From NCBI GenBank assembly GCA_014804695.1, contig JAAUZJ010000009.1:21308-85307 (forward strand): a DNA stretch of 64,000 nucleotides, written 5' to 3'. Origin of the DNA: Lachnospiraceae bacterium (GTDB lineage: Bacteria; Bacillota; Clostridia; Lachnospirales; Lachnospiraceae). Position numbers and translations under genes: made by a program. This document shows positions 27,111 to 64,000 of this stretch, one piece after another. Position 1 is the first letter of the stretch, and every line of letters starts with the position of its first letter. Under the pieces are notes generated by a model that did no database searches, was not told the DNA's origin, and saw nothing but the letters and a program-made list of their open reading frames with translations.

Positions 27111-27240
27111 GGGGTTATTGGAGGGCCACGAACGTAGACAATATAAATGCAAACTGGGCTCGAACCGCGGGAGCGAAGGTCGCCCCGGTTTTGTTTATGT
27201 TGTCTACGTTCTGGTTATTTGAAAAGATTTCCGCAATTGT
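27111..27240. repeat. Nested palindromic element copy E1 (core reversed)
   Basis: Arms AGGTAATTGCGG.../...CCGCAATTG; stem GAACGTAGACAATATAAA / TTTATGTTGTCTACGTTC; core GGGCTCGAACCGCGGGAGCGAAGGTCGCCC. Confidence 0.85.
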
Positions 27241-27276: not shown

Positions 27277-27504
27277 ATGAAGTGTCCATTTTGTGATATA
27301 GAAATGCTACAAGGTTATTTGAATTGTGGCTTAGCACTTTGGAGTACCAGAAAGCATAAGATAAGTCTGCTTACAGACGACAAAGAACAATTTGCTTTCC
27401 GGCTTAAACATACAATGGTATCTCCAAATCATGTGAGTAGTAATTTCTGTCCTAAATGTAAGCGAATGATTATTGACTGCGCAGAGTATGAAAGCAATAT
27501 ATAG
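27277..27504 (+). CDS. Small zinc-ribbon-like protein
   Basis: MKCPFCDIEM ... NFCPKCKRM paired CxxC. Confidence 0.65.
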   Translation: MKCPFCDIEMLQGYLNCGLALWSTRKHKISLLTDDKEQFAFRLKHTMVSPNHVSSNFCPKCKRMIIDCAEYESNI

Positions 27505-27567: not shown

Positions 27568-27770
27568 AGGTAATTGCAAAACTCTTTATTTCCACAACCT
27601 AGTTGTGCAATATAGACAAATCATAAGCAGGGTGCTAGGGAGCCGTCGGTACTTAGCGAGGTTTTTTCGAGCTTAGTACCGCTACGAGCGACATGCAGCG
27701 CAAGCGTGCCCTGCGTTGATTTGTCTATATTGTGCAACGGTCGGATGGAAACATTTTGCAAGAGCCAGGA
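27568..27770. repeat. Nested palindromic element with a different core (family 2)
   Basis: Arms AGGTAATTGCAAAAC.../...TTTTGCAA; stem CAATATAGACAAATCA / TGATTTGTCTATATTG; internal GGTACTTAGCGAG-gttttt-CGAGCTTAGTACC. Confidence 0.75.
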
Positions 27771-36582: not shown

Positions 36583-36651
36583 TATAAACTTAGAATAGCA
36601 AGCACCATATATATAGCACATAACAATAGAACATAAAAGAAGAAAGAACGC

Positions 36652-36803
36652 TGGTTAATTGCAAAAGCCAAATTCAACAGCCCAGAACTTGGACAATATA
36701 AATAAAAAAGGGGCGACCTTCGCTCCCGCGGTTCGAGCCCCTTTTTTATTTATATTGCCCAAGTTCGTCCCCCTTGAATCCCCTCCCTTTTGCAATCAAC
36801 CAA
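36652..36803. repeat. Nested palindromic element copy E2
   Basis: GGTTAATTGCAAAAG.../...CTTTTGCAATCAACC; CCAGAACTTGG.../...CCAAGTTCGTCC; core at 36710-36741. Confidence 0.9.
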
Positions 36804-39710: not shown

Positions 39711-39842
39711 GCTGTGTTCAAGAAGGACTGTGCTCAAGAAGGACGAACGCAGGCAATATAAACAAAAACGAGGCTCGAACCGCGGGAGCGAAGGTCGCCT
39801 CGTTTTTGTTTATATTGTCTGCGTTCTGTATCATTGAACAGC
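39711..39842. repeat. Nested palindromic element copy E3 (core reversed, compensatory core change)
   Basis: Stem GAACGCAGgCAATATAAACAAAAACGAGGC / GCCTCGTTTTTGTTTATATTGtCTGCGTTC. Confidence 0.85.
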
Positions 39843-40337: not shown

Positions 40338-40539
40338 AAAATATCCTCATAGAAAATCTTTTTATTAGTTTATGAGACAGGAAACCGGATTATGACTTGT
40401 CAGTGGATTTTATTGACAAAACCATTTTAGGAGTGGTATTCTGTAACAGAACAAAGGCGTTCATATCTTTCGGTCTGCTATGATAAAAATGGCATGGCGT
40501 TAGATTTGGAGGCTTTTTTTGTATGGTACAATGGAATAA

Positions 40540-40680
40540 GCGATTGCGAAACTAATTATCCAGAGTCACGAACTTAGATAATATAAATAAAGATCGGGGT
40601 TCGACCGCAGGAGCGAACTCACCCCTTATTTTTATTTATATTATCTAAGTTCTGGGTATTGTAAAGCGGTTTCGCAATTG
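40540..40680. repeat. Nested palindromic element copy E4 (diverged core)
   Basis: Arms GCGATTGCGAAAC / GTTTCGCAATTG; stem AACTTAGATAATATAAATAAA / TTTATTTATATTATCTAAGTT; core GGGGTTCGACCGCAGGAGCGAACTCACCCC. Confidence 0.85.
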
Positions 40681-40714
40681 ACAAAATAAGCATAAAGCAG
40701 AAAGGACATTAAAA

Positions 40715-44659: not shown

Positions 44660-44930
44660 ACAACCAAAACTAAGGCGTTTACAAACCTTTCCGCCCCAGA
44701 CCAAAACTAAGACAATTGCAAACCTTTCACCAAGAACCAGAACTGAGGCAATTGCAAAAACATTTTATCGAAAACCAGAACAGAGGAACAATATAAATAA
44801 AAACGGGGCGACCTTCGCTCCCGCGGTTCGAGCCCCGTTTTTATTTATATTGTTCCTCTGTTCGTTATTATTTAAAACATTTTTACAATTGCCTCAGTTC
44901 GTCCTCTTGCCACCAACTTTGCAATTCCTA
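44660..44930. repeat. Nested palindromic element copy E5, multi-layered
   Basis: Three tandem ~37-nt left arms (AAGGCGTTTACAAACC.., AAGACAATTGCAAACC.., GAGGCAATTGCAAAAAC..) plus concentric right arms around the core at 44805-44836. Confidence 0.85.
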
Positions 44931-45995: not shown

Positions 45996-46059
45996 TTTAA
46001 TAACCGCCTTTCTATAATAATCATATATTCTAAAAATAATCGTGAAAAATCTCTCCCGA

Positions 46060-46150
46060 TACCCAGAGCCCGCTTAACATAAACAAAAACGGGGCGACCT
46101 TCGCTCCCGCGGTTCGAGCCCCGTTTTTGTTTATGTTAAACGGGCTCGTG
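46060..46150. repeat. Nested palindromic element copy E6 between ptb and buk
   Basis: Stem GAGCCCGcTTAACATAAACAAAAACGGGGC / GCCCCGTTTTTGTTTATGTTAAaCGGGCTC; core 46091-46122. Confidence 0.9.
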
Positions 46151-46193
46151 CCTCAGGAGAATCTCGTGCGTCTCCGGAGCACCCTTCTCACAT

Positions 46194-47130: not shown

Positions 47131-47190
47131 TTTATAGGTAATTGCAAAACTATTTATACTCAAGGACAACAGTTTTGCAATCGCTTATTT
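47131..47190. repeat. Core-less copy of the nested palindrome family
   Basis: TAGGTAATTGCAAAACT atttatactcaaggacaac AGTTTTGCAATCGCTTA. Confidence 0.65.
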
Positions 47191-56723: not shown

Positions 56724-56731
56724 GATAACAA

Positions 56732-56880
56732 ATAGGTGATTGTGAAACTTCTTTTTCAAAGACCAGAACTTAGGTAATATAAATAAAGACGGGGCGACCT
56801 TCGCTCCCGCGGTTCGAGCCCCGTTTTTATTTATATTATCTAAGTTCGTCCTTCAGAAACAGACCTTCGCAATCACCTAT
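56732..56880. repeat. Nested palindromic element copy E7 (cleanest example)
   Basis: AATAGGTGATTGTGAAAC ... TTCGCAATCACCTATT; CCAGAACTTAGg / CTAAGTTCGTCC; core 56791-56822. Confidence 0.92.
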
Positions 56881-56904
56881 TTTTATCTTAAGAAAGGAAT
56901 ACAT

Positions 56905-63203: not shown

Positions 63204-63449
63204 TGGTGCTGTGGATGGCTGGGGGCCTCCGGGAGTGGCGGGCGGGGAAAATGGTTACCGCTTGGCGGGCGCGCTCTCGCTCCGTTAAAAACGCAGCGGT
63301 ACTAAGGATTTGTCAAAAGTCACCATTGACAAATAAATTTGCCACTGGTGACCTCCGCCAAATCCAAGTGCCGGCGTTTTTAAAGGGCCCGCCAAGCGGA
63401 AATCCATTTCCCCCACCCGCCACTCCCGGAGGCATCGACAGTCACCACG
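63204..63449. repeat. Long GC-rich palindromic element (family 3)
   Basis: GCCTCCGGGAGTGGCGGGcGGGGAAAATGG..CCGCTTGGCGGGC pairs with GCCCGCCAAGCGG..TCCATTTCCCCcaCCCGCCACTCCCGGAGGC. Confidence 0.88.
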
Positions 63450-63885: not shown

Positions 63886-64000
63886 GTCCGAGGTGTGCAA
63901 GGCGGCAGGCGGGTAGGGCGGGGGTGTGAGGAGGGGCGGCAGGGGAAAAGGATTTCCGCTTGCAGGGCCCTCTAAAAACGCCGGCACTTGGATTTGTCTT
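63886..64000. repeat. Second family-3 palindrome copy, truncated by window end
   Basis: GGGGAAAAGGATTTCCGCTTGCAGGGCCCTCTAAAAACGCCGGCACTTGGATTTGTC matches the reverse complement of the right arm of 63204-63449. Confidence 0.75.

Follow-up and report, generated by a model that had tools for sequence, protein, structure and literature searches.

The ERIC, Correia/NEMIS, RUP and BOX repeats of bacteria are short, non-coding, intergenic palindromes that occur in multiple copies without a transposase of their own, and the element described here is like them in all of these respects. ERIC, RUP and Correia repeats are of IS630 origin, which is not supported for the present element. Some bacterial MITEs are substrates of RNase III (PMC10969869). 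REP/BIME sequences, which are associated with RAYT, are likewise many-copy extragenic palindromes, but the present element is 5-10 times longer and no RAYT accompanies it. A different kind of parallel is offered by quasipalindrome correction, in which template switching homogenises the arms of inverted repeats and inverts their spacers (PMC8604942); this is a mutational process, not an element.

TwoAYGGAY RNA (RF01731, clan CL00106) was described as a candidate RNA without an assigned function (PMC2864571), has been proposed to bind CsrA (PMC4333381), and is typed as cis-regulatory by Rfam. Like our element, it holds a structured core in a long, poorly conserved palindromic stem, lies between genes in many copies in the same genome and genus, and contains tandem G.A motifs. 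The two differ in core sequence and fold, in the ANGGA sites of TwoAYGGAY, which are not conserved in our core, and in their ends, which are GATTCA... with an 8-bp duplication in the TwoAYGGAY family and ATTGCRAAAC here.

We analysed a window of 64,000 nucleotides from a Lachnospiraceae bacterium, in which a family-2 palindrome is flanked by an [FeFe]-hydrogenase-like gene and a small gene of unknown family. For comparison, we used a relative with about 91% identity (G063) and two more distant relatives (G047 and G049). The features of the window are as follows.

27568-27770, plus strand: whole family-2 element, with the sense of the conserved core on the plus strand; the G063 ortholog is L330
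27568-27584, plus strand: left outer end, ATTGCRAAAC type, common to families 1 and 3
27602-27626, plus strand: left inner arm (P1 helix)
27627-27714, plus strand: conserved structured core (covariance model R1, 110 bits)
27700-27703, plus strand: GNRA tetraloop, GCAA in the window copy
27715-27738, plus strand: right inner arm (P1 helix)
27754-27770, minus strand: right outer end, inverted and diverged
27117-27230, plus strand: family-1 palindrome adjoining the family-2 element, 22-nt core TCGAACCGCGGGAGCGAAGGTC
36650-36802, minus strand: family-1 palindrome, orthologous site empty in G063
39743-39841, plus strand: family-1 palindrome, present in G063
40535-40690, plus strand: family-1 palindrome, orthologous site empty in G063 and G047
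44740-44900, minus strand: family-1 palindrome
46039-46156, minus strand: family-1 palindrome
47133-47185, no strand assigned: outer ends without core, a decayed or minimal copy
56730-56882, minus strand: family-1 palindrome
63225-63433, minus strand: family-3 element, with a core at 63264-63393 (minus strand) that is homologous to the family-2 core
63942-64000, no strand assigned: beginning of another family-3-like element, truncated by the window end

The palindrome singled out in the preliminary description is real. All sequences quoted for it were recovered in place (AGGTAATTGCAAAACTC at 27568-27584, CAATATAGACAAATCA at 27608-27623, TGATTTGTCTATATTG at 27717-27732 and TTTTGCAA at 27754-27761), and the element folds with -88.6 kcal/mol compared to -54.4 +/- 4.1 kcal/mol for shuffles (z = -8.4). 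It is also far more stable than shuffles when folded as single-stranded DNA. Nine further full-length copies with 77-91% identity are present in the 3.65-Mb genome, together with four core-only copies. A family-1 palindrome sits in the same stretch, and in G047 and G049 approximately 60-80 nt replace approximately 720 nt of this region. A tRNA search found no tRNAs. Between the two palindromes, at 27277-27504, we also observed a 75-codon open reading frame with CxxC pairs, which is missing from the orthologous region of G063 and from G047 and G049.

In our view, the element is probably a mobile palindrome of the non-autonomous, MITE-like kind, with an RNA-like core under selection, arms kept by template switching, and cores that are exchanged between copies. 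It is short and non-coding, and its copies are many and dispersed. A covariance model for the ~88-nt core, built from 14 cores (the ten full-length and the four core-only copies), retrieved 19 cores from the genome, among them those of family-3 elements and of an additional type, L045. Of 77 genomes from the genus, the same model found the core in 74, some with at least 30 cores each, and it also matched in five other genera of the family; the 55 genomes tested from outside this family gave no match. Among named organisms, cores occur in Butyrivibrio and other Lachnospiraceae, Roseburia inulinivorans among them; on this basis, the window itself probably derives from a Butyrivibrio-like genus. 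Viral contigs gave no core match, and literature searches on Butyrivibrio and Roseburia yielded nothing relevant on such repeats. In three other genomes (L059, L064, and L077), two cores of opposite orientation lie about 130-160 bp apart. Cores were also seen in a MAG labelled Muribaculaceae (L094, L115, L124, L138, and L141; JAMPHJ01...), for which a mislabelled or mixed bin is a more likely source than transfer across phyla.

The core resembles a structured RNA, judging from covariation and RNA-specific motifs in its sequence. A GNRA tetraloop closes the terminal hairpin in 44 of 50 distinct core copies and takes six GNRA forms. Both sides have changed in 17 of the 25 core pairs, with far lower values in slid controls, a count that leans towards the model since the alignments behind it (A3 and A4) were fitted to model or structure. 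Copies fetched by the model show paired changes in most core helices. Furthermore, between the window element and its G063 ortholog two pairs of the distal hairpin have been exchanged completely, and two species share an L045 core without any difference over 90 nt although its flanks differ by 7-17%. Searches of Rfam gave no match for the window element above gathering, only chance matches at high E-values in permissive searches, and the TwoAYGGAY model RF01731 had no match in the window at gathering score. The RNA-like fold of the core is new to the Rfam library, and it adds a motif present almost throughout one gut/rumen genus. The core may act as an RNA.

The core was also said to share AGCGGTACTAAG with the family-3 element near 63300. 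This similarity is homology, as the covariance model matches the family-3 core near 63.3 kb with a window E-value of 7e-11. The relation to family 1 is narrower. Outer arms shared around swapped cores had been described. Rather than whole arms, families 1 (27117, 36650, 56730, and others) and 2 mainly have two short sequences in common, the ~16-nt outer end (ATTGCRAAAC) and the heptamer CAATATA. The family-1 core was considered as a shortened family-2 core and rejected, the match being only suggestive (E = 2.8).

Orientation relative to the flanking genes is unbiased (35 ++, 34 --, 14, and 10), which makes a role for the element itself, or in trans through protein binding, more likely for the core than regulation of its neighbours in cis. 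A cis-acting regulatory RNA or a terminator for the neighbouring genes is highly improbable. A strong hairpin does lie near gene ends and the sister motif TwoAYGGAY is filed under cis-regulation, but both orientations are equally frequent, the neighbours are many and varied, a site occupied in one species is empty in the next, and in the copies inspected P1 is not followed by a terminator-like T-run. CsrA binding by the window core was rejected as well, since the ANGGA motif is not conserved in it, though the genome has csrA. More tentatively, and leaning against it, we consider that the core might be an undescribed RNA class living in a mobile hairpin, either as a mobilisation substrate or guide for an enzyme or as a trans-acting protein-binding decoy in dozens of copies; TwoAYGGAY would then be a second, independent example.

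The inner arms behave differently from the core. They add a helix of approximately 24 bp beyond the covariance model and vary strongly among copies, some of them without visible relation. At L045, three arm changes relative to G063 are each matched in the opposite arm. Non-Watson-Crick positions in the arms comprise 71 G.U and 50 A.C (p = 0.07). As G.U hardly exceeds A.C, RNA selection does not explain the arms, and a strong RNA reading of them failed the strand test. Homogenisation at the DNA level via template switching fits the arms better, and we infer this mechanism from the patterns. More specifically, the inner arms would form a helix of about 30 bp whose sequence evolves fast while its complementarity stays, and replication template switching would copy one arm onto the other and could also flip the core. 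Quasipalindrome correction matches the L045 changes and an inversion at L245:13543, but leaves dispersal and core conservation unexplained. The ~88-nt core is kept on one strand as a folded structure with RNA hallmarks. The element is a case where RNA-like constraint on the core is separable from DNA-level upkeep of the arms. We know of no bacterial MITE with this core, or with arms that differ between copies yet match within each.

Four copies (L036-L039) carry a near-identical core within unrelated yet self-complementary arms. Inverted copying of the flank was considered as the origin of such unique arms and rejected at L039, where the empty site of the relative, GGAGGCCTCC, does not hold the arm sequence, so the unique arms arrived with the insert. 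Separately, we observed a pair of hairpins at L238:6772-6832 and L259:9105-9165 with constant ends, CAGAGCA ... TGCTCTGGCTGAACTGG, and a constant tip, CATGCGAGCATG; their mid-stem differs per copy and is fully matched in each.

Evidence for mobility comes from the comparison with G063; stretches totalling about 1.2 Mb of this genome and 1.1 Mb of G063 were covered. Among approximately 26 comparable sites, about 10 are occupied in G063, about 14 are without the element and 2 keep part of it, which amounts to presence/absence variation at orthologous intergenic sites. Target duplications were seen as 8 bp at L267 (family 4) and as GGCC at L039 (core in unique arms); family-2 arms showed no clear target duplication at the sites examined. 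Copies would insert between genes in both orientations and decay through hairpin loss. Loss of the hairpin with the outer arms left in place was seen at L021, in the G063 orthologs of L245:10536 and L222, and at 47,133-47,185 of the window.

The shared arms and swapped cores had been taken to suggest a modular cassette system. Shuffling within the family is supported. At L044, the outer arms are orthologous to those in G063, and the core was exchanged in place: the two versions are set apart by an inserted hairpin and also have different distal hairpins and inner-arm variants. In addition to the near-identical cores of L036-L039, all four pairings of core module and arm variant exist in family 2. 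Such four-gamete tests indicate widespread recombination among family-2 copies with insertions and whole-hairpin replacements included as characters; single-site characters alone could reflect homoplasy. One inversion was seen, at L245:13543, where a family-1 core is inverted relative to G063. A dedicated cassette or invertible system, with a recombinase that moves cores between arms or flips them, would account for the exchange at an orthologous site, the inversion, and the shuffled modules of family 2, but we judge it very unlikely. Neither a recombination site nor a linked recombinase was seen, the variants exchanged belong as alleles to one homologous core family, breakpoints vary among copies as gene conversion predicts, and inversion of a spacer between inverted repeats is a known outcome of template switching (PMC8604942). 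Gene conversion, by which cores would swap among copies, together with template switching and rapid arm evolution is enough, and no cassette recombinase is needed. The MITE-like mobile palindrome offers a natural system to watch palindromes being homogenised, flipped, swapped, and deleted.

Its short outer ends TAGRYRATTGCRAAACT are common to several element families and are probably recognised by a transposase. Ends of the ATTGCRAAAC type flank many copies, with inward-facing pairs about 48, 143, 203, and 232 bp apart. Nine of 29 strict matches start with TAG compared to a background of 1%, which is a hint of a TA-targeting element. Membership in the IS630-type MITE group (ERIC-, RUP-, Correia/NEMIS-like), with TA targeting and an incidental core, would agree with these TAG starts and with similar size and placement (PMC10969869). 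We nevertheless find it unlikely: an IS630 DDE_3 gene is absent from this genome and G063 and present in 4 of 77 genomes of the genus, no clean case of TA duplication was seen, the empty sites being too diverged, and the core is the most conserved part rather than filler.

The search for RAYT and HUH transposases proposed earlier returned no RAYT and a single Y1/HUH gene in the genome (L246:562-900; G000:C17), which is of IS200 type and apparently truncated. The 1.2 Mb of this genome and the 1.1 Mb of G063 contained no convincing long pair of these ends, as an autonomous element would carry. Mobilisation by RAYT/HUH or IS630 is thus not supported. These results also bear on a purely DNA-level selfish hairpin, read by a transposase as a folded single strand (compare IS200/IS605-REP and integron attC) and having no RNA function. 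Unbiased orientation, complementary arms without clear G.U bias, and mobility at orthologous sites all agree with it. Freely varying GNRA loops are, in contrast, an RNA hallmark, the only Y1 gene is the truncated IS200-type one, and at least a dozen copies per genome stand without a matching enzyme, which makes this reading rather doubtful.

A scan of 1.23 Mb yielded 77 palindromes in clusters of 31, 9, 7, 4, and smaller. The third cluster (family 4) consists of six TwoAYGGAY RNAs (RF01731, 111-135 bits) and a seventh, short palindrome with only the outer repeat in common. The genome holds 18 TwoAYGGAY copies; the palindromes with a TwoAYGGAY core are listed here.

L254:3198-3366, L240:8976-9144, L267:15931-16100, L284:9476-9644, L286:16733-16902, L237:12148-12316, and L199:2180-2347: palindromes with a TwoAYGGAY core

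The L267 element is bounded by 29-bp terminal repeats and flanked on either side by the 8-bp sequence TTATATTT, a single copy of which is present in G063. A limited literature search found no statement of TwoAYGGAY mobility. That dispersed mobile palindromes carry this RNA argues against a cis-regulatory role. The copy at L284:9410-9710 has additional outer arms (about 45 nt, GC-rich and nearly perfect) that are unseen in its sister copies.
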